64,000 nt of DNA from Pedobacter antarcticus (lineage in GTDB: Bacteria; Bacteroidota; Bacteroidia; Sphingobacteriales; Sphingobacteriaceae): assembly GCF_900112985.1 (NCBI RefSeq), contig NZ_FONS01000003.1, positions 1 to 64,000 of the forward strand. The letters are read 5' to 3'. Position 1 is the stretch's first letter. Every line of letters begins with the position of its first letter. Below are positions 44,828 through 64,000 of this stretch, one piece after another. The notes under the pieces are model-generated. The model did no database searches. It saw only the letters and a list, made by a program, of their open reading frames with translations, and had not been told where the DNA came from. Position numbers and translations under genes: made by a program.

Positions 44828-44951
44828 CTGTATTTATTGGATTTTTTTGTTAAATATATTGCTTTTATAAATTCAAAAAAACTAATTTCGGATAAAAAAT
44901 ATTCCCACATAATAATTGACCATTTTTACAAAAAAGTTAACAATTCAGCTC

Positions 44952-46091
44952 ATGGATATTTTACAGTCCAGTATTAATGCTTCAGGAAATTCATCCATAT
45001 ATCGCCCGGTATATTATAGAATCCATGATCAGGAAGATGAAAGAAAGCTTCATGCCCTGATTAAAAATAATCCGGACATTCTCATTTACGATACAATTTA
45101 TACCCAGTTAACTGAATTAATTCGGTTACAGCATCCTACTCAAAGACCAGATGCATCTGCAACTGCGATTCTAATCAGCGAACATGCCGGAAAGGATCTA
45201 AAATCTTATGGCGTCTGGGTATATTATCCATGGTCAAAAAAACTTGTCCACCTACTAGACGAAGAGGAATTTGTATTTGTCCGGACAAGCAGAAATATTT
45301 ATAAAATCACACCAGAAGAAATTCAGATACTCAGGAATAAGAAGATTGGTATTATTGGTCTCTCCGTTGGGCAGAGTATTGCTTTAACACTGGCTACAGA
45401 ACGAACCTGCGGAGAACTACGCCTGGCAGATTTTGACGAGATTGAACTCAGTAATATGAACCGCATAAAGGTCGGTGTTGCAGAATTAGGTTTGAATAAA
45501 GCCATTGTAGCGGCCCGTCAAATTGCAGAATTAGACCCGTTTATTGACGTTAAGTGCTTTACATCCGGTGTAAACGCCCAAAATATCAACAGCTTCTTTA
45601 CAGAAGATGGCAAGCTCGATATTCTGGTAGAAGAATGTGATGGAATAGATATCAAAATACTCAGTCGTATTAAAGCCAAATCATTGGGCATCCCGGTAAT
45701 TATGGACACTAATGACAAGGGCATGCTTGACGTTGAACGTTTTGACCTGGAACCTGAACGACCAATCTTTCATGGTAAGGTTCCGGAACTGGAGGCCTAT
45801 TCTGAGGAGGAACTGACGGATAAACTTAGAACACTAACTATACCTGAAAAAATCGAATACCTGGCCCGGATAATTGGTTTTGAAAACCTCTCACCTGCTA
45901 TGTTGAGATCTGTGAGTGAGATGAATAAAACTATAGTAGGCTGGCCACAGCTGGCCTCTGCTGTAACTTTAGGCGGAGCGATGATTACAGATGTCAGCAG
46001 AAAAATATTACTTCAGCAATTTTCAGTTTCGGGGAGGTTTTTTGTAGATTTTGACGAACTGGTTCAAGAAGATAAAAACACTATAAAATAA
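44952..46091 (+). CDS. E1-like ThiF-family adenylyltransferase
   Basis: A 379-residue protein from ATG 44952 (MDILQSSINASGNSSIYRPV). An N-terminal domain of about 125 residues is unassigned. The adenylation domain follows: nucleotide loop 'KIGIIGLSVGQSIALTLATE' (a GxxxGxS variant), 'ADFDEIELSNMNRIKVG' (D, N and R of the ATP site), lysine in 'LGLNKAIVAARQIAELDP', and 'ECDGIDIKILSRIKAKSLGI'. After that region I see no cysteine, so the thioester Cys and the CxxC zinc pairs of ubiquitin-type E1s are missing. It resembles the ThiF part of Rv1355c-type proteins. First gene of a packed operon with GNAT and sensor-kinase genes. Confidence 0.82.
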   Translation: MDILQSSINASGNSSIYRPVYYRIHDQEDERKLHALIKNNPDILIYDTIYTQLTELIRLQHPTQRPDASATAILISEHAGKDLKSYGVWVYYPWSKKLVHLLDEEEFVFVRTSRNIYKITPEEIQILRNKKIGIIGLSVGQSIALTLATERTCGELRLADFDEIELSNMNRIKVGVAELGLNKAIVAARQIAELDPFIDVKCFTSGVNAQNINSFFTEDGKLDILVEECDGIDIKILSRIKAKSLGIPVIMDTNDKGMLDVERFDLEPERPIFHGKVPELEAYSEEELTDKLRTLTIPEKIEYLARIIGFENLSPAMLRSVSEMNKTIVGWPQLASAVTLGGAMITDVSRKILLQQFSVSGRFFVDFDELVQEDKNTIK

Positions 46092-46104
46092 AAACTGGCA
46101 AGCA

Positions 46105-46812
46105 ATGATACATATCAGAACATTCCGAGCGCCGGACGATCCCGAGGCATGCTCAAAATTTATTGTTGGCCACAAAAGACTACTGGAAATTTACGGAATC
46201 ACACAGATTACCTCCAACAGACAAGATTGGGTAGACGATCCGAAAACTATGGTAATTCTGGTTGAAGATAAAGAAACAAAATTTGTTTACGGTGGGGCAA
46301 GGATACAGCTCAAATCCGATAAGTACGACCTGCCTATAGCAAGCGCTATCGGGAAATATGACCCGAAGGTCTACGATATGATCAAAGAAGATGAGGACCG
46401 TGGTGGTACCTGTGAACTTTGTGGATTGTGGAATTCCAGAGAAGTAGCCGGAATGGGAATCGGAAGCCACGTATTGGCGCGTGTTGGTTCGGTATTAGCC
46501 GCTAAATTACAGGTTGTCAGTCTTTTCGTACTCTGTGCCCCGGCAACTGTACGAATGGGTAAAAGAGTTGGCTGTGTCGTAGAAACCACTTTAGGTAATA
46601 ATGGCTTGTTTTACTATCCAAAAGATGATCTGGTGGCTACTGCAATGCGGTTACGGAACCCCGAAGATCTGAGTAACGCTGATGAGTCCGAGCGGATCAA
46701 GATACTATCACTCAGGGACAATCCAAGTCAGGTGCTCGAAGAGAGAGGACCAAAAGGTATTTATCAGTTAGAATATAATTTAACCATTCCAAACTTGAAT
46801 GACCCTGTTTAA
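46105..46812 (+). CDS. GNAT-fold acyltransferase, possibly autoinducer-synthase-like
   Basis: A 235-residue protein with an N-terminal GNAT start ('MIHIRTFRAPDDPEACSKFI'), 'VYGGARIQLKSDKYDLPIAS' and an acyl-CoA binding motif 'REVAGMGIGSHVLAR' (R/QxxGxG/A). The preceding 'CELCGLWNSRE' segment recalls the E/SRF region of LuxI and N-acyl amino-acid synthases; that similarity is by eye only. 13 bases after the ThiF gene and 14 bases overlapping the kinase gene, so the three are cotranslated or nearly so. Substrate unknown. Confidence 0.65.
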   Translation: MIHIRTFRAPDDPEACSKFIVGHKRLLEIYGITQITSNRQDWVDDPKTMVILVEDKETKFVYGGARIQLKSDKYDLPIASAIGKYDPKVYDMIKEDEDRGGTCELCGLWNSREVAGMGIGSHVLARVGSVLAAKLQVVSLFVLCAPATVRMGKRVGCVVETTLGNNGLFYYPKDDLVATAMRLRNPEDLSNADESERIKILSLRDNPSQVLEERGPKGIYQLEYNLTIPNLNDPV

Positions 46813-51007: not shown

Positions 51008-52294
51008 TCAAGAGTATTTACCAGCCAGTCTATTCCGTTGCGCTTTATAAATACCTGTTCTGCCACTGCACAAAAAAGCTATGAAGCAACCTGTGGCAAA
51101 AAAAACCACATATGCCCCTCCGAATAATTCAAGTCCCATAACAGTACAGGCGAGTGGCGTTTTCGTTGCGCCTGCAAAAACAGCTATAAACCCGATCGCT
51201 GCAAAAAGGCTTTCCGGCGCCTGTAATACCTGCGCAAGCGTATGACCGAGAGTCGCTCCGATATAGAATAATGGCGTGACCTCTCCCCCTTTGAAACCGG
51301 TCGCAAGTGTAATTGCTGTATAAATTGTCTTCCATAACCAGCTCCATGTATCTGCCCCGCCAGGTAAAAATGCGGAGGGCAGAGTCACTGCACCTGGATA
51401 AGCTGATTCTATCCCCAATCCCAGAAAATCTGGTTTACCCAAAATTAATGTCAATGCGATTATTACAAACCCACCTAGCAAAGGTATCAGCCATTTTCTT
51501 TGCACTACGCCGGTGATCAGTTGCTTAATACCATGCCCCAGTTTAATGAATAACATACTCACCATTCCAAAAGCGACAGCAGCCAGCATTACCTTCCCCA
51601 AAAGCAACCAGCTAAATGCAAGTCTGCCCGATAAGTAATAGAATTCAACTGGAAGATTATTTACCAGATAGCCGGTATGATGCACGTGTAAAGTCATTAC
51701 TGTAAAATGTCCGGCCATACTGGCTAATAAAGCTGCAGGGAAATGTTTATAGTGGATCTTACCCAGTGTAAGCACCTCAATCGCAAAGATAGCCCCGGTA
51801 AACGGTGTTCCAAATACAGCTCCAAAACCGGCCGCGATCCCGGCGATCAGCACCGTTTTGGTATCCCTTCCGGACATATTAAACCATTTTCCAAAAACCG
51901 ATGCGATACTTCCGCCTATTTGTACTGCCGTTCCTTCACGGCCAGCTGAACCACCAAAAAGATGTGTTATTAAAGTACTGATCAGAATTACAGGGGCCAT
52001 TTTCCAGGTCATACTCCCTACCGGGCGATGAATTTCTTCCAGAATGAGATCATTCCCCTTCTCTGAAGATTTACCAACAGTCTGATAAATATAATGAATC
52101 AATACCCCGGCAAATGGTAAAAAATAAAGCAGCCATGGATGTGAGAACCTGAACAGCGTCACCCTATGGAGCAAAATCAGAAAGAGTGACACTATTAAAC
52201 CTGTCGCAACCGAAATACAGCAAATCAGGAGTAACCAGCGAAAAAATATACGCAGAGAAGGTACTGACCACAATGCGGGAAAGTAAGATTTCAT
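51008..52294 (-). CDS. CLC-family ion channel/antiporter, probable fluoride/proton type
   Basis: A 428-residue protein with about ten or more membrane helices. At the place of the chloride filter GSGIP it reads 'KGNDLILEEI', and the GREGP motif is 'GSAGREGTAVQIG'; further 'GAVFGTPFTGAIFAIEVL' and 'GGEVTPLFYIGATLG' are conserved. The G-N-x-L-I filter with GREGT/V is what I recall for CLC-F fluoride exporters, distinct from chloride CLCs. The gating Glu of GREG is kept. No fluoride riboswitch was found upstream. Monocistronic. Confidence 0.75.
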   Translation of the reverse strand: MKSYFPALWSVPSLRIFFRWLLLICCISVATGLIVSLFLILLHRVTLFRFSHPWLLYFLPFAGVLIHYIYQTVGKSSEKGNDLILEEIHRPVGSMTWKMAPVILISTLITHLFGGSAGREGTAVQIGGSIASVFGKWFNMSGRDTKTVLIAGIAAGFGAVFGTPFTGAIFAIEVLTLGKIHYKHFPAALLASMAGHFTVMTLHVHHTGYLVNNLPVEFYYLSGRLAFSWLLLGKVMLAAVAFGMVSMLFIKLGHGIKQLITGVVQRKWLIPLLGGFVIIALTLILGKPDFLGLGIESAYPGAVTLPSAFLPGGADTWSWLWKTIYTAITLATGFKGGEVTPLFYIGATLGHTLAQVLQAPESLFAAIGFIAVFAGATKTPLACTVMGLELFGGAYVVFFATGCFIAFLCSGRTGIYKAQRNRLAGKYS

Positions 52295-52339
52295 AAACAG
52301 GCAATTAACCGTGGAATCGAAATATCCGGCGATTCATCA

Positions 52340-52347
52340 CAAATATA
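52340..52347 (-). promoter_or_regulatory. -7 promoter element of the CLC gene
   Basis: TATATTTG on the complement matches TAnnTTTG, about 45 bases before the ATG at 52294. Confidence 0.5.
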
Positions 52348-52448
52348 AAATTCCCATAAAGAATAAAGACGTTTATAACTCAGAAAATGGAATTATAAAA
52401 TTAAAAGTCGCCTTGGTTTTTAACTAAAGGTTAACCGTATCATACTCT

Positions 52449-52583
52449 GGTTTCGCCAACATTTACTTCACACTTCCTTCGGAGTTTGTTCGGACTTCCT
52501 TCGTTGTTCCTTCAATCGAAATCGAACGAAAAACGAAGGAAGCATGAAGATCATATAAACGAAATCCGATACAATGGCGAAAC
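52449..52583. repeat. Palindromic intergenic repeat unit
   Basis: Outer inverted repeats GTTTCGCCA (52450-52458) and TGGCGAAAC (52575-52583) enclose inner inverted repeats CTTCCTTCGTT (52495-52505) and AACGAAGGAAG (52532-52542). ACTTCCTTCG also occurs in direct orientation near 52472 and 52494. The nested symmetry in a non-coding gap suggests a REP/MITE-like element. Confidence 0.45.
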
Positions 52584-52618
52584 ACACTCTATCTTATGCC
52601 GACACTTATAATTTTGTC

Positions 52619-52650
52619 AAAAAAAAAGCAGGGTATCTTGCGATCCCTGC
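52619..52650 (-). terminator. Terminator of the GH109 operon
   Basis: GCAGGG (52628-52633) pairs with CCCTGC (52645-52650); a run of nine T follows on the complement (52627-52619). Confidence 0.8.
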
Positions 52651-52671
52651 CTCCAAAGTCAAAAATAAATT

Positions 52672-54024
52672 TTAATAATCGTCGTTTAGCGCAAATACAG
52701 GTTTTCTGGTCATCCATTTACCACCGCTGAAATCCGGAAAATCCAGTGTTTCATTACCAAGCTCAATAGACTGCTCGCTTAATGGCGTAATGGCGCTCCA
52801 TGCAGCGGCGTCATAAACATCCATAGGCGTTTCAGTATTCCGCTTAACAGACTCAATAAAAGCATGTATTACGAAAAAGTCCATACCACCATGACCGGCA
52901 CCCTGTGCGTCGTTACCATATTTCTTCCAAAGCGGATGATCATATTTTTCCAGCCATGCATTTGCATCATCCCATTTATGGGGCTTGCTCTGTCCTTCCA
53001 CATAAATACTGTTGTTCAGATCCATCCATAAGCCATTAGTTCCTTGTACACGGAACCCTAAAGAATAGGGCCTTGGAGAATTGGTATCATGTTGTAGTAT
53101 AATTGTTTCCCCGTTTGCACAATCTAATGTGGTAGTTACGATATCGCCCAATCTGAAATTCACTTTTGTATTAGGATGGCTTTCACCGCCCTTATCAACA
53201 ATATATTTATGCAGGCCTCTTGCTTTGGTTGCAAAAGAGTTGATTTTCAAAAACCTATTTCCCCTGTTAATATTTATGCACTGTGCGACAGGACCGATCC
53301 CATGTGTAGGGTAAAGCTCACCATTCCGGTGAACAGAATGATTCGTTCTCCATTTCGCCTCAGAAAATCCTTTTTCATTAAATTCGACACCGCCCCCGTA
53401 AGGCTTGATCCCATCATTAAACTTTACTTCTCTCAGATCGTGCTGATAGCCACCTTGAAGGTGCAGTATCTCCCCGAAAACGTCTTGTCTCACCATATTT
53501 AAAACCGCAAGGACATCTCTGCGGTAACAAACATTCTCCAGCATCATCACATGCGCCTGGTGTTTCTCTGCTGCGTGTACTACATCCCAGTGATCCTGCA
53601 AAGTGATACCAAGCATAACCTCGGTTGCAACATATTTTAAGCCAGCTTCCAGTGAGCCAATGATCATTGATTTATGCCATTCCCAAGGAGTTGAAATAAT
53701 AACAGACTTTAATCCCTTGACCTGGAGCATATCTTTCCAGGCATTATTATCACCTGTATAGATTTTGGGCATCGGCTTACCACTTTTGGTAATTAGCTTT
53801 TTAGCCATCTCCAGCATGCGTGGTTCTACATCGCAGATTGCAACAAGTTCTACATCATCCCTTTTCAATAATAGATCCAGGTGGTTTTGCCCACGCAGAC
53901 CAACACCTATCATTGCGATTTTAACTTTCTCACCCGCATAATTCGCAAAAAGTGTCTGTTCGGGCATCATCGTCAGTGCGGCAGCTGTAAGACCGGTTGT
54001 AGCCACAAATTCTCGTCTGTTCAT
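52672..54024 (-). CDS. GH109-type alpha-N-acetylgalactosaminidase (Gfo/Idh/MocA fold)
   Basis: A 450-residue protein with a Tat signal (MNRREFVATTGLTAAALTMM) and an NAD-binding N-terminus ('IAMIGVGLRGQNHLDLLLKR'). Characteristic GH109 stretches follow: 'STPWEWHKSMI', 'MMLENVCYRRDVLAVLNMVR', 'GGYQHDLREV', 'WRTNHSVHRNGELYPTHGIG', 'HKYIVDKGGESHPN' and 'DAQGAGHGGMDFF'. These match my memory of the Elizabethkingia enzyme that removes blood-group A GalNAc by an NAD-dependent elimination mechanism. It cleaves terminal alpha-GalNAc in the periplasm. Alternative: a related oxidoreductase. It sits 23 bases after the 54048 gene, divergent from SusC. Confidence 0.87.
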   Translation of the reverse strand: MNRREFVATTGLTAAALTMMPEQTLFANYAGEKVKIAMIGVGLRGQNHLDLLLKRDDVELVAICDVEPRMLEMAKKLITKSGKPMPKIYTGDNNAWKDMLQVKGLKSVIISTPWEWHKSMIIGSLEAGLKYVATEVMLGITLQDHWDVVHAAEKHQAHVMMLENVCYRRDVLAVLNMVRQDVFGEILHLQGGYQHDLREVKFNDGIKPYGGGVEFNEKGFSEAKWRTNHSVHRNGELYPTHGIGPVAQCININRGNRFLKINSFATKARGLHKYIVDKGGESHPNTKVNFRLGDIVTTTLDCANGETIILQHDTNSPRPYSLGFRVQGTNGLWMDLNNSIYVEGQSKPHKWDDANAWLEKYDHPLWKKYGNDAQGAGHGGMDFFVIHAFIESVKRNTETPMDVYDAAAWSAITPLSEQSIELGNETLDFPDFSGGKWMTRKPVFALNDDY

Positions 54025-54047
54025 AGTTATATTTTCAGCTATAAAAA

Positions 54048-54674
54048 TTATATAAGATTGTTTTGTTTATTCTGATAACCTTTGATTTGTAACATCCTGA
54101 TTTTCCAACCTGGCGCCACAGGATGCTTTAACGATAGACCCGGCCCGGACGAAAATTCACCATCCCAGTCAGAAAGCATAAATTTTAACGATTTTAATGT
54201 AGCCAGCGTTAATCCGTAATGATCGATAAGTTTTATGCTGACATAAGCCCTTCCTTCTGCCTGGGGACTAACCGTCAGCACAAGCTGTACAGCTCCAAAC
54301 AGACTATCGGCATCCGTCTGGCGGCTGTCTGTTTCTTCATTTATAAAAAGACTATAATTCTCGTTCATTCCGAAACTGATTGGTTCTGCAGCTTTTTCAC
54401 CGGAAGGCTTAAAATACATGGTAAATAAAGCACTCTCCTGAATCCTTTCAGGTACAACCTCCATCCTGTATTCCAGTCCAAAAGAGCTAACTGTTGAAGC
54501 AGTAAAAATCTCACTTTCAGGTATATCGTACCAGGTATTGTCGTAAACTTCTACTTCTTCTTTATTCAGATAATCCGGAGTCGCCAAGACCGGATCTGGC
54601 TCCTTGGTTACCGGCACTTTTGCAGGTTGAGAGCCAAAAATGCGTGTAAAAAGTTCTCTGCGTTCCATGTTCAT
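54048..54674 (-). CDS. Unknown protein upstream of the GH109 gene
   Basis: A 208-residue protein I do not recognise. It begins MNMERRELFTRIFG; an ATG two codons on (54668) is an alternative start. There is no evident signal peptide or membrane helix. The body is rich in predicted beta strands ('STVSSFGLEYRMEVVPERIQ', 'GAVQLVLTVSPQAEGRAYVS') and ends with 'APGWKIRMLQIKGYQNKQ'. It is the first gene of the leftward unit with the GH109 gene and is flanked by LacI-type operators, so it belongs to the same regulon. Confidence 0.65.
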   Translation of the reverse strand: MNMERRELFTRIFGSQPAKVPVTKEPDPVLATPDYLNKEEVEVYDNTWYDIPESEIFTASTVSSFGLEYRMEVVPERIQESALFTMYFKPSGEKAAEPISFGMNENYSLFINEETDSRQTDADSLFGAVQLVLTVSPQAEGRAYVSIKLIDHYGLTLATLKSLKFMLSDWDGEFSSGPGLSLKHPVAPGWKIRMLQIKGYQNKQNNLI

Positions 54675-54741
54675 TCATTTGGTGATGACAAGGTATAAAA
54701 ATTCCCCCCATGCCCGCAACGCTAAAAATCGAATAATCAGC

Positions 54742-54776
54742 GCAAACGTTTGATAAATAAATTATCAAACGTTTGC
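54742..54776. promoter_or_regulatory. Paired LacI-type operators
   Basis: GCAAACGTTTGAT (54742-54754) and ATCAAACGTTTGC (54764-54776) are mirror images, each containing the palindrome CAAACGTTTG (54743-54752, 54766-54775), centres 23 bp apart. They lie upstream of the leftward 54048 gene. The centre CG and form are typical of LacI/GalR operators. Confidence 0.8.
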
Positions 54777-54944
54777 ATAAACTAGGCGAAGTATAAAATG
54801 AGGAAACGACTGTTTGCCCGCACCTACATCCGAAACTTAAATTCCTCAAACTAAAATATACAATTATCTAATAATCAATTATTTAGTAATTAACAAGCAA
54901 AACTAGTCACAGAAAGCATTATGAAATTTTCCCGCCTTTATCTA

Positions 54945-54958
54945 ATCAAACGTTTGCG
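54945..54958. promoter_or_regulatory. LacI-type operator upstream of SusC
   Basis: ATCAAACGTTTGCG contains the same CAAACGTTTG palindrome (54947-54956), 181 bp centre to centre from the nearer of the two left operators and about 120 bases before the SusC start. Distance would allow looping. Confidence 0.8.
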
Positions 54959-55072
54959 TTGATTTAGACATTTTGAAATGCTTAAAGCTTGCATAACGCC
55001 TCCTATCTTCAATTTACAAGCTCCTGAACCAAAGCTTTAAAAATTGAATTGCTAACCATTTAAAATCATTGC

Positions 55073-58000
55073 ATGCCTAAAATTTACCAAATCAACAACA
55101 AGATCTTGGATAGGATCATCTTGTCAGAATTGAGAAAACAAATCAAAGTTTCCTCCGCCGGCCTCAAAACCGGACTATTTCTATTACTTCTGTTTTTTAG
55201 CCGCGCAGCATTTGCACAGCATACTGTAACTGGTACAGTAAAAGACGAAAAGGGCCTGGCTATGCCCGGTGTTTCCATTAAAGTCAAAAAAGCCGGTGGC
55301 GGAGCCATAACCGATGGAAACGGAAAATTCGCCATCAGCACAGCCGCCGACGGCATATTGGAATTCAGCTATATTGGTTATCTGAATCAGGAAATCAAAA
55401 TATTAGGTAAATCATCTGTCCAGGTGATTCTTGAGCCAGATGCGCAGCAAATGGATGAAGTTGTCGTGGTCGGTTATACCTCTAAAAGTAAGTCCCAGAT
55501 TGTCAGCTCAGTTTCGACAGTTACCGCTAAACAACTAAATGATGTAACCAGCAATAGCACAAGTAATTTATTGCAAGGTAAAGCAGCTGGTGTCGTTGTA
55601 ACTTCGGCCTCTGGCCAGCCAGGTGCCGCAACTAGTATTCGTATCCGGGGTACAGGTACAATAAGTGCCGGAGCAGAACCATTAACGGTAGTAGATGGTG
55701 TAATCGGAGGTTCGGCAAACCCAAGGGATATTGAGTCAGTTACTGTATTGAAAGATGCCGCAGCTACCGGTCTTTATGGTTCAAGAGCCGCAAATGGTGT
55801 TATTGTAATTACCACTAAACAAGGTAAAAGCGGTAAAACACAGATAAATTACAGTGGCACGTACGGTGTAAATACTGCTTCCCAGGGTAATTTCAATTTA
55901 ATGAACGGGCAGCAGCTTAAAGACTACAGCACCTATCTTTACAGTAATGATTATGATGCTAAGCGGTCTTCGTATATCAAACAGCTTTCCGCCACCAATC
56001 CTAACCCAAGTCAGGATCAGATAGATGCTTTTTTAACCACTAAAGGATTACCGCTTCAAAGTGCAGCCTATCTCAGCAATTTTATCCCGGAAACAGCGGG
56101 TAATACAGATTGGAGAGACCTGGCATTCCGTACGGCCTATACCAATAATCAGAATATTAATATCTCAGGCGGAGACAGCCGAACACATTTTTATATCGGT
56201 GCCAATTATTATGATGAACAAGGAACATTAATCAACACGGGTGTCAACAACATCAATTTCAGGGTAAATTTAGATCATCAGATCAACGACCGCCTGAAAG
56301 TAACTACAAGGATTAATGCAGGATTTGGTAAAAAAAACAATGATCAGACCGGTGCCTTATATCAAAGTGCAACTAATATGCCCTGGGATAATCCATTTAA
56401 TGCCGATGGTTCTCCGAAATATGTAGATCAGGAAACACAATGGTTCGGAAGGGATCATAGTAATTTTGTGTACCTCAGTGATTATAATGTGGATAATGAA
56501 CGTACACAAAACCTTTCCGGCGATTTAAAATTAGAGTATAAAATCAATAAATACCTGAATTTTACTACCTCTAACAGATATACTACGAGTAATTCAAGGA
56601 GCGAAGTCCTGACAGATGCCCGCACACCGACAGGGAAAGCTAATTCCGGAGAATTAAAGAATATTTACGGCTACTCAAATTCGGTAATTACGTCTAACCT
56701 GTTTAATACGGCATTTGATCTGGGCAAACACCATATTTCCGGGATAGCAGGATTTGAATATCAACAAAACTATACGGATAACATGACCGGTATCGGATAC
56801 GGTATTCAACCGGGTCTGGAAATCCTGGATGCAACTGCTACTCCAAAATCCTTAAATGGCTCAAAATCGAAAAGCCGTTATGTCTCTGAATTGTTCATGG
56901 GAGATTATAATTACGATAATCGTTATTTCGGAACTGTATCACTTAGAAATGATGGAAGTTCCAAATTTGGAAGAAATCATATGTACGGCTTATTCTACAG
57001 TTTTGCGGGTGGCTGGCTTATTTCCAATGAAAGCTTCTTCAAATCCAAAACAATTACCAATCTGAAACTACGTGCCAGTTATGGAGTTACAGGAAATACA
57101 CCAACTGCAGATTACGGTTCCTTACCTCTGTATACCTTTAATGTGCAATACAATAATATTCCTGGCGGCTATCCCTCGTCGCAGGGAAATCCAAACCTGA
57201 CCTGGGAAACACCCACTACAATTAACGCAGGTATGAATATCGGTTTCTGGAATAGAATAGAACTGAACGTCGATGTATATCAGCGTACCAATAAAGATTT
57301 GATTATTGAGGTTCCTTTGTCAAGCGCATCAGGTTTTTATCAGCTGACACAGAACATCGGTACCGTTAGAAACCGTGGTATTGATATTGAGCTGAATACA
57401 ATTAACCTGACGGGAGCTTTCAAATGGAATACGACCTTCAACATTGGATTCAATAAGAACAAAGTCGGCAAATTATACCAGGACCAGCCTATCGATAAAT
57501 TCACTAATCAGAGAATTGCCGTCGGTCAGGATATGAATTCATGGTTCATGCGCGAATGGGCAGGTGTTAATCCTGATAATGGTGAACCGCTGTGGTACAA
57601 AAGCAAAACTGAGGCCGATGGCAGTATTTCTACGACAACCACGAACGACTATAATGCTGCAGACAGAAGATATGTAGGAACATCTACCCCGAATTTCACA
57701 GGAGGTATGGGGAATGAATTTTCTTATAAAAACTTTAGTCTGAATGCGTTTTTCAATTTCGTGTCCGGAAGTAAGATCTACAATTCGAGCAGGGAGTTAT
57801 TCGATGCAGACGGTGCCTACCCACAGTATAACAGTATGGTATTAAAGGATGACTGGAACCGTTGGGAAAAAGCCGGCGACATAGCTACTCATCCAAAAGC
57901 AGTTGTAAACGGAAACAAACTTTCCTACAAACCTTCATCCAGATATTTGGAAGACGGATCTTACCTGCGTCTGCGGAATGTGACTTTTGCGTATAATTTC

Positions 58001-58201
58001 CCGGAAAGTGTCACTAAAAAATTAAATCTGTCAAACCTGCGCGTATTTGTAAGTGGTGACAATCTGCTCACACTAACTAAATTCTCTGGAATGGACCCTG
58101 AGGTATCAGACCTGGAACCAAATACAGCAAACAGCGGAGTAAGCGGATTCAGATATCCGATCAGCAAAAAAGTAATGTTCGGTGTTAATTTAAACTTCTA
58201 A
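55073..58201 (+). CDS. SusC/RagA-family TonB-linked outer-membrane transporter
   Basis: A 1042-residue transporter: signal peptide (about 30-48, 'LFLLLLFFSRAAFAQ') after a long basic N-terminus, carboxypeptidase-like domain ('VTGTVKDEKGLAMPGVSIKV', about 52-125), TonB-box-like 'MDEVVVVGY', plug domain ('IRIRGTGTISAGAEPLTVVD', 'GLYGSRAANGVIVITTK') and a beta-barrel to the C-terminal Phe. It imports oligosaccharides across the outer membrane with the SusD partner 24 bases downstream. LacI operators stand upstream. Confidence 0.95.
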   Translation: MPKIYQINNKILDRIILSELRKQIKVSSAGLKTGLFLLLLFFSRAAFAQHTVTGTVKDEKGLAMPGVSIKVKKAGGGAITDGNGKFAISTAADGILEFSYIGYLNQEIKILGKSSVQVILEPDAQQMDEVVVVGYTSKSKSQIVSSVSTVTAKQLNDVTSNSTSNLLQGKAAGVVVTSASGQPGAATSIRIRGTGTISAGAEPLTVVDGVIGGSANPRDIESVTVLKDAAATGLYGSRAANGVIVITTKQGKSGKTQINYSGTYGVNTASQGNFNLMNGQQLKDYSTYLYSNDYDAKRSSYIKQLSATNPNPSQDQIDAFLTTKGLPLQSAAYLSNFIPETAGNTDWRDLAFRTAYTNNQNINISGGDSRTHFYIGANYYDEQGTLINTGVNNINFRVNLDHQINDRLKVTTRINAGFGKKNNDQTGALYQSATNMPWDNPFNADGSPKYVDQETQWFGRDHSNFVYLSDYNVDNERTQNLSGDLKLEYKINKYLNFTTSNRYTTSNSRSEVLTDARTPTGKANSGELKNIYGYSNSVITSNLFNTAFDLGKHHISGIAGFEYQQNYTDNMTGIGYGIQPGLEILDATATPKSLNGSKSKSRYVSELFMGDYNYDNRYFGTVSLRNDGSSKFGRNHMYGLFYSFAGGWLISNESFFKSKTITNLKLRASYGVTGNTPTADYGSLPLYTFNVQYNNIPGGYPSSQGNPNLTWETPTTINAGMNIGFWNRIELNVDVYQRTNKDLIIEVPLSSASGFYQLTQNIGTVRNRGIDIELNTINLTGAFKWNTTFNIGFNKNKVGKLYQDQPIDKFTNQRIAVGQDMNSWFMREWAGVNPDNGEPLWYKSKTEADGSISTTTTNDYNAADRRYVGTSTPNFTGGMGNEFSYKNFSLNAFFNFVSGSKIYNSSRELFDADGAYPQYNSMVLKDDWNRWEKAGDIATHPKAVVNGNKLSYKPSSRYLEDGSYLRLRNVTFAYNFPESVTKKLNLSNLRVFVSGDNLLTLTKFSGMDPEVSDLEPNTANSGVSGFRYPISKKVMFGVNLNF

Positions 58202-58225
58202 TCAGGCTACAAAAAATCTAAGAAA

Positions 58226-59713
58226 ATGAAAGCTAATTATAAAATATGTATAGCAATGGCGCTGATCTGCACTTTCGGCTCCTGTAAAAAAGACCTTGAG
58301 CTCCCACCCTACAGCGGTATAATTAATGAAACCGTTGTCAGCACGCTCGAAGGACTACAATCAGCAACGATAGGAACTTACAATTACATAAAAGATGCGT
58401 ATTACGTAAGAAATTATCATATCCTTTCTGAATATGCCAGTGATAACGTTTCACTGAGCGGCACAACAACTGACCCTTTATTTTTTGCTTATAATTATCA
58501 ACATCAAAAAAACCAGGGGAATGTCGCCAATATCTGGAGAAAGGCCTACCAAGCTATTTATGGCACCAACGTGGTCATCGAAAAAGTTGCTGAAAGTGAC
58601 GATCCGGTAAGAAACCAGCTCCTGGGTGAGAATTACTTTCTGCGGGCCATGGTCCATTTTGATCTGGTTAAACTTTTTGGCAGACCATATACCGATGATC
58701 AGGGCGAATCGCTCGGGGTAATGATAAAAACTAATACAGATGTTAAAGAACTTCCTGCAAGATCCAAGGTCAAGGATGTTTATCAGCTTGTCTTGTCAGA
58801 TCTGCTTAAAGCAGAAGGACTGATGAACAGTACTAAAATAAATAATTTCGCATCAAAGGAGGTTGCTACGGCGATGCTGAGCCGGGTATATCTCTATATG
58901 GGAGATTATCAGAAAGCGTGGGAATATTCAGATAAAGTGATCAAAACCCAACGGTACAACCTGGTCTCTACTGGTGAATATCCAAAGTATTTCACTAAAT
59001 CTCCCGAAGAGAATTCAGAGACAATTTTTGCTATCAAACATGTACTCACCGATGACCGTCTGGATGACGCAATAGGTTCCATGTACTGGGGAGGTGATTT
59101 GGGTTACGGAGAAATGTACGCCTCTCAGACTTATAGAGAGCTATTAAATAAACACCCTGAAGATGTAAGAAACTCATTTGTGGTTCCTCAATATGAAAAA
59201 GATGCTAATGGTAATATCAAAAAAGATGCACAAGGCAACCCGATTCTTCAAAAAAGGAATGGATACGCTAAATATTTCATTAACAAGTATTCCTTTCAAA
59301 ATGGTTATGAGACACTGAGTTCGCCTGTGGTGCTCAGACTAGCCGAAATGTACCTCACCAGGGCAGAAGCCGCCTATCAGATGGGAAGAATCCAGGAAGC
59401 ACTGGATGATGTTAATACCATCAGACAAAGAGCAGGATTGAGTGGTAATTCTCTGTTCTCTACCAGCAATATGCAGGGCTATACTAACGTACTGGATATT
59501 ATTCTAGATGAACGAAGACTGGAGTTTGCTTTTGAGTCACAGCGCAAATTTGACGTGTTTAGAAATAAGCAAACCATGTATAGAAACTATCCGGGTACGC
59601 ATCTGCCATCAGGAGAAACGCAGCAGGAGATTAAATACACCAGCCCCCGGGTAATTTACTTTATTCCCGAAAATGATATGGTTGTTAACCCTAACTTAGT
59701 TCAAAACCCCTAA
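58226..59713 (+). CDS. SusD/RagB-family surface glycan-binding lipoprotein
   Basis: A 495-residue lipoprotein (signal 'MALICTFGSCKKDLE', Cys about 20) with SusD TPR-like helices ('NYFLRAMVHFDLVKLFGRPY', 'AMLSRVYLYMGDYQKAWEYS') and the C-terminal SusD fold ('LRLAEMYLTRAEAAYQMGRI', 'DERRLEFAFESQRKFDVFRN'). It sits over the SusC pore and captures glycan. Followed by a weak terminator that may lower downstream expression. Confidence 0.95.
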   Translation: MKANYKICIAMALICTFGSCKKDLELPPYSGIINETVVSTLEGLQSATIGTYNYIKDAYYVRNYHILSEYASDNVSLSGTTTDPLFFAYNYQHQKNQGNVANIWRKAYQAIYGTNVVIEKVAESDDPVRNQLLGENYFLRAMVHFDLVKLFGRPYTDDQGESLGVMIKTNTDVKELPARSKVKDVYQLVLSDLLKAEGLMNSTKINNFASKEVATAMLSRVYLYMGDYQKAWEYSDKVIKTQRYNLVSTGEYPKYFTKSPEENSETIFAIKHVLTDDRLDDAIGSMYWGGDLGYGEMYASQTYRELLNKHPEDVRNSFVVPQYEKDANGNIKKDAQGNPILQKRNGYAKYFINKYSFQNGYETLSSPVVLRLAEMYLTRAEAAYQMGRIQEALDDVNTIRQRAGLSGNSLFSTSNMQGYTNVLDIILDERRLEFAFESQRKFDVFRNKQTMYRNYPGTHLPSGETQQEIKYTSPRVIYFIPENDMVVNPNLVQNP

Positions 59714-59718
59714 TAAGC

Positions 59719-59750
59719 AGAACCCCGCAAACAAATGCGGGGTTCTTTGA
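59719..59750 (+). terminator. Terminator or attenuator after SusD
   Basis: AGAACCCCGC (59719-59728) pairs with GCGGGGTTCT (59737-59746). The following TTTGATT run is weak, so read-through to the DUF3472 gene is likely. Confidence 0.6.
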
Positions 59751-59765
59751 TTGATACCTTTCGCT

Positions 59766-61010
59766 ATGAAAAATAAAAAACAGAGCAAACTGATTATAGT
59801 CTTATTAGCCTTACTCGTTTCAGGAATAAATTTACCGGCTGCTATCAGACAGCAACCGGTTATTATTCCAGTAGCCGGAAACAGCTGGAAGAAAGATAAT
59901 TCGGTCCGCATCTACTTTAACCTGTCAAAACCAACCAAAAGCAGAATAAGCCTTGACATCATACCAGATGGAGATGCTGAAATCGTAATCAAAGCAGGGA
60001 AAAAGTCACGTACTTTAAAACTGACTGGAAATGCTCCGCAAATGATAGATGCAGGTACATTTCAGTTCGACCGTTCTGGCTATTCCACTATAGAACTAAT
60101 TAAAAAGTCTGGCAATCTGGGTATTGCACGAGCTGTTCATCTGAACGATCTGCCCGCTGAGGTACAAACCAATTATGTAAAAGATAATCAGGACAACAGA
60201 TTTTACTGGGGAAGACGCGGGCCTTCTGTACATTTAAATTACGACGTACCGGAAACGTTAGTCAAACAAGATATTTCCTGGTTCTATAATGAGATTACGG
60301 TATCTGAAGGGAAAGACCCGGTTGGCTCATATTTTATGGCCAATGGTTTTGGAGAAGGTTATTTTGGGATACAGGTTAATTCTAAAGCCGAGAGACGGGT
60401 GCTGTTCTCCATTTGGAGCCCCTTCCATACCGATGACCCTTCTGCAATTCCCGAAGATCAAAAGATACTGATGCTTAGAAAAGGCAAAAATGTGCAGGCA
60501 GGTGAATTTGGAGATGAAGGATCTGGTGGTCAGAGTTTTCTGGTCTATCCATGGAAGGCAGGAAAGAAATATGAATTTCTGACCAGCGCGGTCCCCGATA
60601 AAGCGACAAATTCTACAGTTTACACTTCCTATTTTAAACCAGCTGACGCAGAGTGGATGCTCATTGCCAGTTTCCGCAGACCGCAGACGCAAACATATCT
60701 TACCAGGCTCCACTCCTTTTTAGAAAATTTCGACCCGGAAATGGGTGACCAGACGAGAAAAGCGGTTTACAGCAATCAATGGATCAGAGACAAATCTGGT
60801 CATTGGATTTCATTATCCAAAGCCAAATTCAGCGGAGATGACATTGCCAAAAGAGCATATCGGATCGATTATGCCGGTGGTTTAAGCAAGAATGGATTTT
60901 TTCTTCAAAACGGAGGATTTTTTAGTCCGGGAGTACCTTTGAATGAAATTTTCACCCTCCCACGCAATGCAGTCCATCCCCCGGAAATAGACTTCAGCCT
61001 GCTCCGGTAA
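59766..61010 (+). CDS. DUF5077/DUF3472 exported protein
   Basis: A 414-residue protein from ATG 59766 with a signal peptide (KNKKQSKLIIVLLALLVSGI). The N-terminal beta-sandwich (about 35-135) looks like DUF5077; the second part has DUF3472 features ('YNEITVSEGKDPVGSYFMAN', 'GFGEGYFGIQVNSKAERRVL', 'SFLVYPWKAGKKYEFL'). These domains occur in carbohydrate loci and may bind or cleave glycans; the activity is not established. Its position after SusCD supports that. Confidence 0.8.
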   Translation: MKNKKQSKLIIVLLALLVSGINLPAAIRQQPVIIPVAGNSWKKDNSVRIYFNLSKPTKSRISLDIIPDGDAEIVIKAGKKSRTLKLTGNAPQMIDAGTFQFDRSGYSTIELIKKSGNLGIARAVHLNDLPAEVQTNYVKDNQDNRFYWGRRGPSVHLNYDVPETLVKQDISWFYNEITVSEGKDPVGSYFMANGFGEGYFGIQVNSKAERRVLFSIWSPFHTDDPSAIPEDQKILMLRKGKNVQAGEFGDEGSGGQSFLVYPWKAGKKYEFLTSAVPDKATNSTVYTSYFKPADAEWMLIASFRRPQTQTYLTRLHSFLENFDPEMGDQTRKAVYSNQWIRDKSGHWISLSKAKFSGDDIAKRAYRIDYAGGLSKNGFFLQNGGFFSPGVPLNEIFTLPRNAVHPPEIDFSLLR

Positions 61011-61025
61011 ATTTGCACTGATAGA

Positions 61026-61063
61026 AAAAAAGGAGGCTTACCAACCGGTAAGCCTCCTTTTTT
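61026..61063 (+). terminator. Terminator of the SusCD-DUF3472 unit
   Basis: AGGAGGCTTACC (61031-61042) pairs perfectly with GGTAAGCCTCCT (61047-61058), flanked by A and T runs. Confidence 0.88.
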
Positions 61064-61107
61064 GTTAATAATTATTTAATATTAAAAGATAATCGCAACT
61101 TGCATAC

Positions 61108-62136
61108 ATGTCGGTTAAACCAACAACCATTAAAGAAATTGCTAAATTACTGGACATTTCAGTAAGTACAGTTTCCCGCGCTCTAAATGACCATCCCAGT
61201 ATTGGCCTAACTACAAAAATGCGGGTCAGGAAAATAGCTAAAGAATTAAATTACGAACCAAATCAACGTGCAATCCAGTTTCTTCAAGGAAAATCGCATA
61301 CTATTGGCGTTATTTTGCCTGAACTCTCTGAATCTTTTTTTTCTGCTGCAATCAGCGGGATTGAAGAAATTGCCTATAAACGTAATTATACTGTGCTGCT
61401 GGCCCAGTCTCATGACGATGCCGATCTGGAAAAAGTATTACTGGAGAAAATGAAAACACAAAGGGTTGACGGTTTATTGATCTCAGTAGCAAAAACAACC
61501 ATAAATTTTGATCATTTTGAAGCACTGAACCGATTGCAGATTCCGATTGTGTTTTTTGATCGTATCCCTGCCATAAAAAACATTCACTCCGTAGCATCTA
61601 ACCTGGAAACCGGCACTTACGAGGCAGTGAGCTTCCTGCTGAAAAAAGGGCACAGGACTATTGGGATGATCAATGGTCCGACCAATATGACCTCCAGTGC
61701 AGAACGTAAAAACGGATATATCAAAGCGATGACTTCGCACCGCCTTAAATATGATCCTTCATTAATGATTCATACAGCCCTGACAGAAGAAGATACCATT
61801 CAGGCAATGAATACATTTATTCACCATAAACGTAAACCTACTGCTGTTGTTACCTTTAACGACTATGTCGCACTCTTCGCTATGCGTTATGCACGCTCAC
61901 AGAACCTGAAGATCAATAAGGACATTGAGTTTGTAAGTTATGCTAACCTGCCTATTATAGAATACATGGAAAACACACCGATTGCCTCGGTAGAACAATT
62001 TCCATTTAAACAAGGTCAAAAGGCTGCAGATATTCTTCTCGATCTGATTAACAGCCCTAAACCAGATAACAGCACAGAACAGGCCTGGTATAAAGTAGTT
62101 GTAGAATCTGAGTTGGTAACAGGTAAAAATAAATAA
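61108..62136 (+). CDS. LacI-family transcriptional regulator
   Basis: A 342-residue regulator: LacI HTH and hinge ('TIKEIAKLLDISVSTVSRAL', 'KIAKELNYEPNQRAIQFLQG', about 5-60) and a periplasmic-binding-like sugar domain ('TIGVILPELSESFFSAAISG', 'RTIGMINGPTNMTSSAERKN', 'IVFFDRIPAI'). It is flanked by genes with CAAACGTTTG sites and is the obvious regulator of the GH109/SusCD/kinase set. A sugar ligand of the N-acetylhexosamine type is inferred. Confidence 0.93.
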   Translation: MSVKPTTIKEIAKLLDISVSTVSRALNDHPSIGLTTKMRVRKIAKELNYEPNQRAIQFLQGKSHTIGVILPELSESFFSAAISGIEEIAYKRNYTVLLAQSHDDADLEKVLLEKMKTQRVDGLLISVAKTTINFDHFEALNRLQIPIVFFDRIPAIKNIHSVASNLETGTYEAVSFLLKKGHRTIGMINGPTNMTSSAERKNGYIKAMTSHRLKYDPSLMIHTALTEEDTIQAMNTFIHHKRKPTAVVTFNDYVALFAMRYARSQNLKINKDIEFVSYANLPIIEYMENTPIASVEQFPFKQGQKAADILLDLINSPKPDNSTEQAWYKVVVESELVTGKNK

Positions 62137-62141
62137 TTACA

Positions 62142-62151
62142 CAACCGTTTG
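62142..62151 (+). promoter_or_regulatory. LacI-type operator-like site before the kinase gene
   Basis: CAACCGTTTG differs by one base from the CAAACGTTTG operators and lies just after the LacI stop, about 72 bases before the kinase start. Confidence 0.55.
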
Positions 62152-62222
62152 CACAAAAATCTCCTAACGAAATTGTTTAAGTTTGGTTTGATGTCTTTAT
62201 GAACAATCATTCCTAAATCTAT

Positions 62223-63278
62223 ATGCATAACCAAATATTAGCCCAATACGGAAATCATCTTTCAAATTCGCAAATTCAATTATTTGGTGATGGATTAATC
62301 AATAAAACCTGGAAAATAAAAACGGTAGCCGGAAACTATATTCTGCAGCAGGTTAATGCATCTGTTTTTAAAACCCCGGAGGATATAGATGAGAACCTGA
62401 ATAAACTTCGGCTATATCTGGAAAAGAACAATCCCGAATATCTGTTCATTTCTCCATTACCTACGCTAATTGGTGAATCCTTGGTTCATACCGAAGAAGG
62501 CTATTTCAGGCTTTTCCCCTTCGTAGAAAACTCCCATAGTTTAAATGTGCTTACTCAACCGAAAGAGGCTTTTGAAGGTGCTGCCCAATTTGGTAAATTT
62601 TCCCGCGTGCTGCAGGATTTTGACGTCAGCCAGTTAAAAATCACACTCCCCGATTTTCACAATCTTAGTTTACGCTACCAGCAATTTAATACCGCGCTGG
62701 AAAATGCTTCTGCAGAAAGAAAGGCCCGTTCTTCAAACCTGACCAGCTTTATCCAGGATCATCGCGATATTGTAGACACTTATGAGAAAATCGTCAGTGA
62801 AAATCTGATTCCGGTGCGGGTAGTTCATCATGATACTAAAATTAATAATGTGTTGCTCAATCAGCAAAACAAAGGAATGTGCGTGATAGATCTTGATACT
62901 GTTATGCCCGGATACTTTATAAGTGATGTTGGAGATATGATGCGTACCTATCTTTCTTCTGCTAACGAAGAAGAGACAGATCTCAGCCAGATAAACGTCC
63001 GCAAAGCGTTCTTCAAAGCCATCTATGCGGGTTATATGTCGGAAATGGGTAATGTCTTAACTGCTGAAGAACAGGAATATTTCATCTATTCCGGAAAATT
63101 CCTCATTTATATGCAGGCCATCCGCTTCCTGACGGACTATTTAAGTGAAGATGTTTATTATGGATCACGTTATCCGGGTCACAATTTAAACAGAGCTGCC
63201 AATCAGATCCGTTTACTCGAATGTTATCTGAAAATGGAGGATGAGCTGAACGCAATGGTTGCCACAGCCGGGTACTAA
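62223..63278 (+). CDS. NahK-like N-acetylhexosamine 1-kinase (aminoglycoside phosphotransferase fold)
   Basis: A 351-residue kinase: small lobe with 'NYILQQVNASVFKTPEDIDE' and 'YFRLFPFVENSHS', catalytic loop 'PVRVVHHDTKINNVLLN' (about 199-215) and metal-binding 'VIDLDTVMPGYFISDVGDMM'. Length and motifs fit NahK, which phosphorylates GalNAc/GlcNAc at C1. Together with the GH109 gene it suggests salvage of released GalNAc. A homoserine-kinase-like activity is less likely. Its own operator-like site precedes it. Confidence 0.8.
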   Translation: MHNQILAQYGNHLSNSQIQLFGDGLINKTWKIKTVAGNYILQQVNASVFKTPEDIDENLNKLRLYLEKNNPEYLFISPLPTLIGESLVHTEEGYFRLFPFVENSHSLNVLTQPKEAFEGAAQFGKFSRVLQDFDVSQLKITLPDFHNLSLRYQQFNTALENASAERKARSSNLTSFIQDHRDIVDTYEKIVSENLIPVRVVHHDTKINNVLLNQQNKGMCVIDLDTVMPGYFISDVGDMMRTYLSSANEEETDLSQINVRKAFFKAIYAGYMSEMGNVLTAEEQEYFIYSGKFLIYMQAIRFLTDYLSEDVYYGSRYPGHNLNRAANQIRLLECYLKMEDELNAMVATAGY

Positions 63279-63340
63279 AATTAGGGCTCTTTTCAATTTC
63301 TAATTGTCAGAAGCATAAAATTTACAGATATTCGGCGCGG

Positions 63341-64000
63341 ATGAAAATATTGTACGCCATTCAGGCAACCGGAAACGGTCATATTAGCCGGGCCAGAGAA
63401 ATCGTTCCTCTATTGCAGAAATACGGGACGGTCGATTTGCTGGTAAGCGGTACTCAGGCAGATATGCAGCTGGATCAGGAGGTAAAATACCGCTTTCATG
63501 GCTTCAGTTTTGTTTTTGGCCGGAAAGGTGGTGTACATCATTGGGAAACCTGGAAATCAATGAACCTGCGCAGGTTTTTCCGAGACATGCAAAGCCTTCC
63601 ATTGAAAGACTATAATCTGATTATTAATGATTTCGAACCGGTTTCCGCCTGGGCCTGTAAATTACAGGGTATAGAAAGTGTGGGTCTAAGCCATCAGGCC
63701 GCTTTTCAGTCTCCCCTGGTACCTAAATCCAAAAGCATCGACTGGGCGCAACTGGTCATGAAGTATTACGCCCCCGCCAGCCACTATATTGGTTTTCATT
63801 TTAAACGTTACGACCAATTTATTTATACGCCGGTTATACGCTCGGAAATCCGGCGTTTAGAGATATCAGATCTCGGCCATTACACCGTATATCTGCCTTC
63901 GATCGCCGATAAATGGCTGGTACCTGTTTTAAAACAAGTACCTGACGTAAAGTGGGAGATCTTCTCTAAACATATTTCCAGTGCTTACTCAGATGGAAAT
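63341..64000 (+). CDS. Glycosyltransferase-family protein, N-terminal part (cut by window edge)
   Basis: Open from ATG 63341 through the window end (220 codons). It starts 'MKILYAIQATGNGHISRARE', a GT-B glycosyltransferase N-terminus with a glycine-rich nucleotide-sugar loop, and continues 'YNLIINDFEPVSAWACKLQG' and 'ESVGLSHQAAFQSPLVPKSK'. It resembles MurG/MJ1255-like transferases. 62 bases after the kinase in the same direction, so it may be cotranscribed, though it could start an unrelated unit. Confidence 0.75.
   Translation, partial: MKILYAIQATGNGHISRAREIVPLLQKYGTVDLLVSGTQADMQLDQEVKYRFHGFSFVFGRKGGVHHWETWKSMNLRRFFRDMQSLPLKDYNLIINDFEPVSAWACKLQGIESVGLSHQAAFQSPLVPKSKSIDWAQLVMKYYAPASHYIGFHFKRYDQFIYTPVIRSEIRRLEISDLGHYTVYLPSIADKWLVPVLKQVPDVKWEIFSKHISSAYSDGN

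Follow-up and report, generated by a model that had tools for sequence, protein, structure and literature searches.

The closest described counterpart of the locus considered here is the polysaccharide utilization locus (PUL) BT4240-50 of Bacteroides thetaiotaomicron. In that PUL, BT4243, a GH109 alpha-N-acetylgalactosaminidase characterized, like its partner, biochemically and genetically, shares an operon with BT4240, an anomeric 1-kinase that prefers N-acetylgalactosamine (GalNAc), is required for growth on this sugar, and is 39% identical to NahK from Bifidobacterium longum (BlNahK); the PUL also contains SusC/SusD, a GH2 beta-1,3-galactosidase, an M60 peptidase, and extracytoplasmic function (ECF)-type sigma/anti-sigma genes that are thought to regulate it (Ndeh et al. 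2025, PMC11992087). The steps after GalNAc phosphorylation are left there as "downstream metabolism," and the term LacI is absent from the text of that paper. Two other systems are related through their kinases, the lacto-N-biose/galacto-N-biose (LNB/GNB) pathway of B. longum, to which NahK belongs, and the AmgK-MurU pathway, described for Tannerella (PMC7670621). Here, we analyze a locus in a 64,000-nucleotide stretch of Pedobacter antarcticus DNA (contig NZ_FONS01000003.1, positions 1 to 64,000, called the window), which comes from a genome of 4.57 Mb in 25 contigs. The locus combines a GH109 gene, a SusC/SusD pair, a DUF3472 gene, a LacI-family regulator, and a NahK-like kinase, and we consider it probable that it forms the core of a LacI-controlled GalNAc salvage regulon of Pedobacter.

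The Pedobacter system has in common with the B. thetaiotaomicron PUL a GH109 enzyme, a candidate GalNAc 1-kinase of the aminoglycoside phosphotransferase (APH) fold, a major facilitator superfamily (MFS) transporter, and SusC/SusD, which would make up one release-and-phosphorylation system. It differs in having LacI and DUF3472, in the absence of GH2 from the locus, in an MFS gene located elsewhere in the genome, and in a kinase of another clade. Two relatives' loci, L049 and L115, resemble the B. thetaiotaomicron PUL in that a GH2 beta-galactosidase gene lies beside GH109 and a kinase of the window's own clade, called clade A below. Compared with the B. longum pathway, the window kinase is of the same family and shares its invariant columns, but it is only 35% identical to BlNahK and belongs to a separate clade, and no LNB phosphorylase, GalT, or ABC transporter was recognized among the nine window proteins scanned. 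With AmgK-MurU, the anomeric kinase is common, and the sister clade of the window kinase lies beside an NTP_transferase-family gene; the window kinase itself has no nucleotidyltransferase directly beside it and stands instead in a context of an operator and GH109. Its neighbors are lacI and an MJ1255-type glycosyltransferase gene, with a small NTP transferase gene one further on (L041:2544-3254). The original prediction had held that a link of GH109 to NahK in one regulon was undescribed, a claim we had to give up since BT4240 and BT4243 lie in one published operon (PMC11992087). The LacI regulator and the kinase of clade A differ from B. thetaiotaomicron and appear to be new, the working principle being the same. 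In the open-access literature, mostly as titles and the starts of abstracts, no description of the LacI regulon was found among the matches listed. If the assignment holds, the gene cluster can be treated as a regulon that is open to experiment and has a defined operator throughout a family of environmental bacteria, and the partnership of GH109 with an anomeric kinase, in which two kinase clades are involved, would reach beyond gut mucin degraders.

The GH109 protein was assigned to its family by two domains that both score above their cut-offs, the Rossmann domain PF01408 and the C-terminal domain PF21252, and the model of the latter matched a single protein of the genome, this one. Over residues 19 to 450, it matches PDB 2IXA, a solved alpha-N-acetylgalactosaminidase that we take to be from Elizabethkingia, with an E value of 7e-160 (536 bits), and it matches Akkermansia AmGH109A (PDB 6T2B) with an E value of 2e-75. 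A loop of sequence GAGHGG is the same in 2IXA. The catalytic residues of AmGH109A are Tyr226, His259, and His404 (PMC10755693), with which Tyr193, His241, and His378 of the window protein align at one constant offset of 25. Changing a histidine to alanine abolished the activity of a Spirosoma GH109 (PMC6521355), and that histidine was matched, by reading, to a histidine of the window protein via the LYPT-x-G of the mutagenesis primer. Relative to 2IXA and AmGH109A, both domains and the Tyr/His/His set are shared, and the sequence offered no difference that seemed relevant to mechanism. By eye, the N terminus MNRREFVATTG looks like a twin-arginine translocation (Tat) signal.

The kinase matches BlNahK (PDB 4WH1/4OCJ) over residues 16 to 347 with an E value of 2e-59. 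Residues D208, D228, D230, R306, and Y317 (BlNahK numbering), to which we ascribe catalytic or binding roles, are identical in BlNahK and in all sequences of three kinase groups that were separated by a tree of 44 sequences (21/21 in clade A, 13/13 in clade B, and 9/9 in clade C). Clade A comprises 21 rows including the window kinase (support 96/95), and 19 of its 21 loci hold lacI and/or GH109, the two with neither being L046 and L052. Its nearest relative is clade B, with 12 rows (support 100/97), and L074 is basal to both. The nine rows of clade C join BlNahK, and some of their loci are near MFS, CBM9, NagB/PIG-L, or GlmM-like mutase genes. A wider, quick tree of 63 rows kept clade A, together with two rows of other families (99), and grouped L122 with BlNahK and clade C. 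We used L122 as a stand-in for BT4240 on the basis of its gene order, GH109, a 296-amino-acid protein that is membrane-like by eye, GH2, and kinase, which resembles BT4243-40. The rooting is by midpoint, and BlNahK sits on a long branch that leaves its exact place unsure; the clade labels used for conserved columns and co-occurrence came from the 44-kinase tree or from identity bands. Since the window kinase falls in a separate clade in both trees, we rejected a plain NahK orthologue, and the original description as NahK-like stands as to homology while the kinship is looser than it implied.

Three exact copies of the palindrome CAAACGTTTG lie in the divergent promoter region between GH109 and SusC, two of which together form an inverted repeat of 16 pairs, and a fourth site, CAACCGTTTG, precedes the kinase. 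The count in the window is weak evidence on its own: five matches at one mismatch or fewer were seen where 3.0 would be expected, and as many as five turned up in 17 of 100 shuffles, for which reason we discarded significance by window count alone. Over-representation in the genome was likewise rejected, with seven exact copies found against 11 for the reversed control. Operator evidence beyond chance is in placement and conservation, and the comparative test is the strong one. Three of the seven exact copies lie within 214 bp at the GH109/SusC promoter, three are inside predicted open reading frames, and the remaining copy, C16:597, is flanked on one side by a NagB/PIG-L-type gene that starts 184 bp from it and on the other by an Omp85-like gene of divergent orientation. 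Ahead of a CBM9-MFS gene pair on contig C6 is a one-mismatch site, CAAGCGTTTG, whose start is 49 bp from the pair; as chance alone would give roughly one site of this kind in every 20 kb, this is modest evidence.

In the comparative test, 27 relatives' loci whose LacI is at least 57% identical (524 kb) were set against 53 other loci (1.05 Mb), all picked for the kinase, GH109, or LacI, with the motif not a criterion; the relatives share ancestry, and their locus and genome counts are not independent. The palindrome occurred 58 times between genes, in 25 of the 27 loci, and twice within coding sequence, while nine control palindromes of the same composition occurred between genes not once in these loci. 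Of the 53 other loci, 7 had it between genes, at 12 sites in all. At 49 of the 58 intergenic sites in the LacI-bearing loci, the first downstream gene within 600 bp was a gene of the set. Counting sites from 450 bp upstream to 30 bp inside a gene, the motif was near the start of lacI in 20/27 cases, GH109 in 12/16, the kinase in 10/13, susC in 8/16, DUF3472 in 2/5, and CBM9 in 2/3, as against 11 of 324 other genes. The window regulator has both the helix-turn-helix and the sugar-binding domain of LacI regulators and a conserved palindrome, except that no CAAACGTTTG-type site lies 5' of the window's own lacI. The lacI gene probably starts its own transcription unit because a strong hairpin precedes it; operators had been foreseen ahead of each unit, which was borne out for GH109, SusC, and the kinase and not for lacI.

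The locus is conserved in Pedobacter cryoconitis strain Xaverov 94 (L114), where the kinase is 91% and lacI 99% identical and the DNA is 88.7% identical from position 52217 to the end of the window, with the same gene order. All four operator sites are identical there, although the dS of the genes is 0.53 to 0.71. Because dN/dS for the six genes measured, DUF3472 being excluded, ranges from 0.006 (lacI) to 0.086 (the orphan gene of Table 1), all six, the orphan included, are under purifying selection.

Co-occurrence was assessed in a sample of 151 genomes of the family, the window's own included, drawn from a larger group. The kinase (E <= 1e-20) was found in 115/151, GH109 (E <= 1e-60) in 107/151, and LacI (E <= 1e-90) in 74/151; of 198 genomes from the wider class, 22 had the kinase at the same threshold. 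Every one of the 72 genomes with a GH109 of at least 50% identity had the kinase, versus 43 of the other 79. The two genes were at most 6 kb apart in 42 of the 72; among these, the identity of the kinase was 48% or higher in 13, 42 to 47% in 5, and below 40% in 24. A LacI of at least 57% identity was present in 28 genomes, and in 22 of these, the kinase or a GH109 of at least 50% identity lay within 6 kb of it. Some relatives hold more of the system together. L060 has NagB/PIG-L, MFS, a clade A kinase, lacI, and GH109, and in L115, from another family, lacI (48%), GH109, a kinase of clade A, and GH2 follow one another, an MFS gene of divergent orientation being close by. In L079 (genome G082), two operators are followed in one direction by SusC, SusD, three further genes, a clade C kinase, CBM9, MFS, GH109, NagB/PIG-L, and a GlmM-like mutase. 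A beta-galactosidase gene accompanies the pair in L049 and L115 (GH2) and in L056 (GH35, before GH109 and the kinase), and Gal-GalNAc structures are only hinted at by these genes.

That GalNAc would be released and 1-phosphorylated under one LacI regulon, as had been predicted, is well supported by homology, by the catalytic residues that are kept, by the conservation of the operators, and by joint occurrence in the family, and membership of the regulon can likewise be read from the motif. In B. thetaiotaomicron, the two enzymes have been shown by experiment to form a GalNAc route (PMC11992087). In the mechanism that we infer, GalNAc-bearing glycan fragments would be imported by SusC/SusD, and a Tat-type GH109 would remove terminal GalNAc, presumably in the periplasm, by its NAD-dependent redox mechanism. 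The sugar would pass the inner membrane via a NagP-like MFS transporter encoded on contig C6, and the APH-fold kinase would convert it to GalNAc-1-phosphate. LacI, acting as a repressor rather than an activator, would bind the CAAACGTTTG palindromes before the GH109, SusCD-DUF3472, and kinase units and before one NagB/PIG-L-type gene, and also, less surely, before the CBM9-MFS pair. GalNAc, or a phosphorylated form of it, would be the inducer that makes LacI release these sites.

Parts that relatives keep together are scattered in the window genome, with MFS at C6:235167 (59% identity) and a GlmM-like mutase at C17:288842 (78%). NagB/PIG-L is represented by two gene starts, C16:1-413 and C13:1-164, both cut by contig ends, and by C-terminal ends that match at two other contig ends. 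The two starts are probably a recent duplication because their shared DNA looks identical by eye; operator-like sites lie upstream of the C16 copy and not of the other. The C16 gene, seen as the first 137 residues, is 72% identical over 133 residues to the L075 protein, which in full has both NagB and PIG-L domains. The 858-amino-acid gene divergent from it was considered as a hydrolase and rejected, its sole Pfam match being Omp85. The GlmM-like proteins score above the archaeal GlmM cut-off. Because the L075 and L079 NagB/PIG-L proteins pass the nagB cut-off and fail that for galactosamine-6-phosphate isomerase, the pathway may run through a 6-phosphate of the gluco series via UDP-sugar epimerization, or the enzyme may be broad. 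These genes name candidate enzymes for the fate of GalNAc-1-phosphate in Bacteroidota. The enzymes AgaS and AgaA are taken as markers of GalNAc use through their genes agaS and agaA (PMC5583593), and we tentatively raise, as a speculative extension, a pathway free of both in Sphingobacteriaceae, in which no search for AgaA or AgaS was made. Under its own LacI, a second, independently recruited anomeric kinase (clade A) would form GalNAc-1-phosphate, an archaeal-GlmM-type mutase would move the phosphate to C6, and the fused NagB/PIG-L would deacetylate and deaminate the product. The L079 gene run contains candidates for every step, its kinase being of clade C. If true, the pathway would fill in what the B. 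thetaiotaomicron study left as "downstream metabolism."

Several observations weigh against GalNAc salvage as described. Nothing encoded in the window locus specifies the glycan, so that mucin and blood-group A glycans, to whose salvage the route had originally been likened, are no more than candidate natural substrates. GH109 members may also act on beta-linked GalNAc (PMC12269599). The window kinase is outside the clade of BlNahK and the BT4240-like L122 in both trees, and at position 31, where BlNahK has His, all 21 clade A kinases have Leu, a residue of uncertain weight that is mixed in clade B (7 His, 6 Leu) and clade C (6 His, 3 Leu). The NTP_transferase gene beside sister clade B suggests other N-acetylhexosamines. 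More than 6 kb separates GH109 from the kinase in 30 of the 72 genomes, one of which is the window's own (8 kb or more), and LacI is away from both in 6 of 28 (G013, G061, G088, G094, G145, and G150). No exact site lies at the gene's own start for MFS (0/4) or NagB/PIG-L (0/3) in the relatives' LacI-bearing loci. The NagB/PIG-L proteins of L075 and L079 score below the galactosamine-6-phosphate isomerase cut-off. Similar palindromes are common to LacI-family proteins, the Escherichia coli PurR box having the same core as ours, so that some of the sites could be used by another LacI protein.

The alternative that fares best, which we regard as unlikely but worth carrying, is a general N-acetylhexosamine regulon serving chiefly N-acetylglucosamine (GlcNAc) from chitin or cell walls, with GH109 an accessory that adds GalNAc. 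The kinase would make both GlcNAc-1-phosphate and GalNAc-1-phosphate, GlmM would yield the 6-phosphate, and NagB/PIG-L would finish the route. NahK from bifidobacteria accepts the two sugars to about the same extent (PMC6264712), the C6 transporter is NagP-like (407 bits, under the cut-off of 625), and in L076, L077, and L079 the kinase has a GlmM-like mutase gene next to it or nearby. The L075 and L079 NagB/PIG-L proteins, moreover, pass the nagB equivalog model for glucosamine-6-phosphate deaminase (247 and 256 versus 236.9). Against a GlcNAc regulon, the hydrolase that accompanies the kinase across the family belongs to GH109, a family of GalNAc enzymes, and no chitinase or GH20 was recognized by family scans among the nine proteins of 51008-63997.

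A second alternative, which is compatible with GalNAc salvage and which we think improbable, is degradation of a microbial exopolysaccharide or lipopolysaccharide with a GalNAc side group, in which DUF3472 would be the main depolymerase and the kinase secondary. Pedobacter is not a gut genus, and DUF3472 genes occur with lacI in the window and in L048, L053, L054, L095 (where the locus ends within the gene), and L103, while L061 has one that follows two operators. On the other side, we know of no activity of DUF3472, its PDB match 4QHW carries the entry title "uncharacterized protein," the literature naming DUF3472 concerns, by title, centipede venom or fly viruses, and the AlphaFold model is of low confidence (mean pLDDT of 42, from two sequences per alignment).

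The weakest alternative is that the kinase is an AmgK-like anomeric kinase of N-acetylmuramic acid/GlcNAc in peptidoglycan salvage, which took over after loss of clade B and lies by lacI incidentally. Clade B is nearest, 11 of its 13 loci (L074 included) have an NTP_transferase-family gene adjoining the kinase, and the window genome keeps such a gene at C5:70032 (L085:8033-8932), directly before dnaK with no kinase between. Yet an operator precedes the window kinase and, in LacI-bearing loci, 10 of the 13 kinases, 13 genomes have a clade A kinase no more than 6 kb from GH109, kinases of both clades occur together in G088, G094, and G145 by the tree (with a second kinase in G125 and G150 by identity only), which argues for separate jobs, and the NTP_transferase gene is unproven as MurU, with just PF00483 and a sub-threshold Arch_glmU match, so that we hold it to be very unlikely. 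Since the window genome keeps the NTP_transferase gene of the B loci and yielded no clade-B-type kinase, the kinase of the window being its sole family member at E 1e-20, the GalNAc kinase that we favor may have a second role in amino-sugar salvage.

The features of the locus are collected in Table 1, in which profile and PDB matches agree with the original identification of GH109, SusC, SusD, DUF3472, LacI, and the NahK-like kinase. With an adjacent SusC/SusD pair and a carbohydrate-active enzyme, GH109, the locus can be classed as a PUL. On the minus strand are GH109 and the orphan gene, followed across the divergent promoter by SusC, SusD, the DUF5077/DUF3472 gene, the hairpin, lacI, and the kinase on the plus strand.

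Table 1. Coordinates (window positions) and supporting matches of the features of the locus
Feature	Positions	Strand	Evidence
GH109 alpha-N-acetylgalactosaminidase candidate, 450 aa	52672..54024	-	PF21252 300 bits, PF01408 38 bits
Orphan protein, 208 aa, no assigned function, 5' of GH109 on the same strand	54048..54674	-	no family match
Operator 1, CAAACGTTTG	54743..54752		exact; identical in L114
Operator 2, CAAACGTTTG	54766..54775		exact; 23 bp from operator 1; identical in L114
Operator 3, CAAACGTTTG, SusC side	54947..54956		exact; identical in L114
SusC/RagA-type TonB-dependent transporter, 1042 aa	55073..58201	+	TIGR04056 824 bits (cut-off 368), TIGR04057 62 bits
SusD-like protein, 495 aa	58226..59713	+	PF07980 99.6 bits, PF14322 81.7 bits
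DUF5077+DUF3472 protein, 419 aa from TTG (or ATG at 59766)	59751..61010	+	PF11958 353 bits, PF16871 43 bits, PDB 4QHW E 6e-100
Terminator-like hairpin between SusCD-DUF3472 unit and lacI	61026..61063	+	-27.4 kcal/mol, z -8.1 vs 200 shuffles
LacI-family regulator, 342 aa	61108..62136	+	PF00356 52 bits, PF00532 109 bits
Operator 4, CAACCGTTTG, 5' of kinase	62142..62151		1 mismatch; identical in L114
N-acetylhexosamine 1-kinase candidate (APH fold), 351 aa, clade A	62223..63278	+	PF01636 61 bits

The orphan gene was absent from the earlier gene list and makes the GH109 unit one of two genes. Its product matched no Pfam or other family model, its best PDB match was at chance level (E of 0.8), and the 150 other family genomes gave just two weak partial matches (E of 2e-4 and 9e-4); it is 89% identical in P. 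cryoconitis. Its AlphaFold model, also built from two sequences per alignment, is beta-rich at very low confidence (mean pLDDT of 33). The hairpin before lacI had no entry in a pattern-based terminator scan of the window, a scan that was itself at chance level (8 found versus 8.9 expected), as was a sigma-70 promoter scan of the window (28 versus 28.1). Inspection by eye of the sequence near the operators gives no ground for claiming a Bacteroidota-type promoter.

Downstream of the kinase, the segment 63341-64000 and its continuation L041:1342-6078 encode the MJ1255-type glycosyltransferase, the small NTP transferase, a protein with no Pfam match, a CDP-alcohol phosphatidyltransferase, and an LPG_synthase_TM protein, 83 to 99% identical in P. 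cryoconitis. This cluster may make a phospholipid or glycolipid head group; the glycosyltransferase, NTP transferase, CDP-alcohol transferase, and LPG_synthase_TM were rejected as parts of the system, having a best match in 0 of 40 mapped kinase loci (E of 1e-5). About 6 kb downstream of the kinase, shortly past the end of the window, is a GH95 alpha-fucosidase gene (L041:7340-9796; G000:C17, approximately 69339-71795) that is 93% identical in P. cryoconitis, and an exact-motif search of the genome placed no operator there. Within the window, 44916-46812 encodes a ThiF-family protein and, after it, a 235-amino-acid product that matched no Pfam model; a sigma-54 gene and genes that are two-component-like by eye are nearby. 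Between a CLC channel gene and GH109, a 22-nucleotide inverted repeat (86%) at 52495-52542 is flanked by a GTTTCGCCA/TGGCGAAAC pair and is possibly a small palindromic element.

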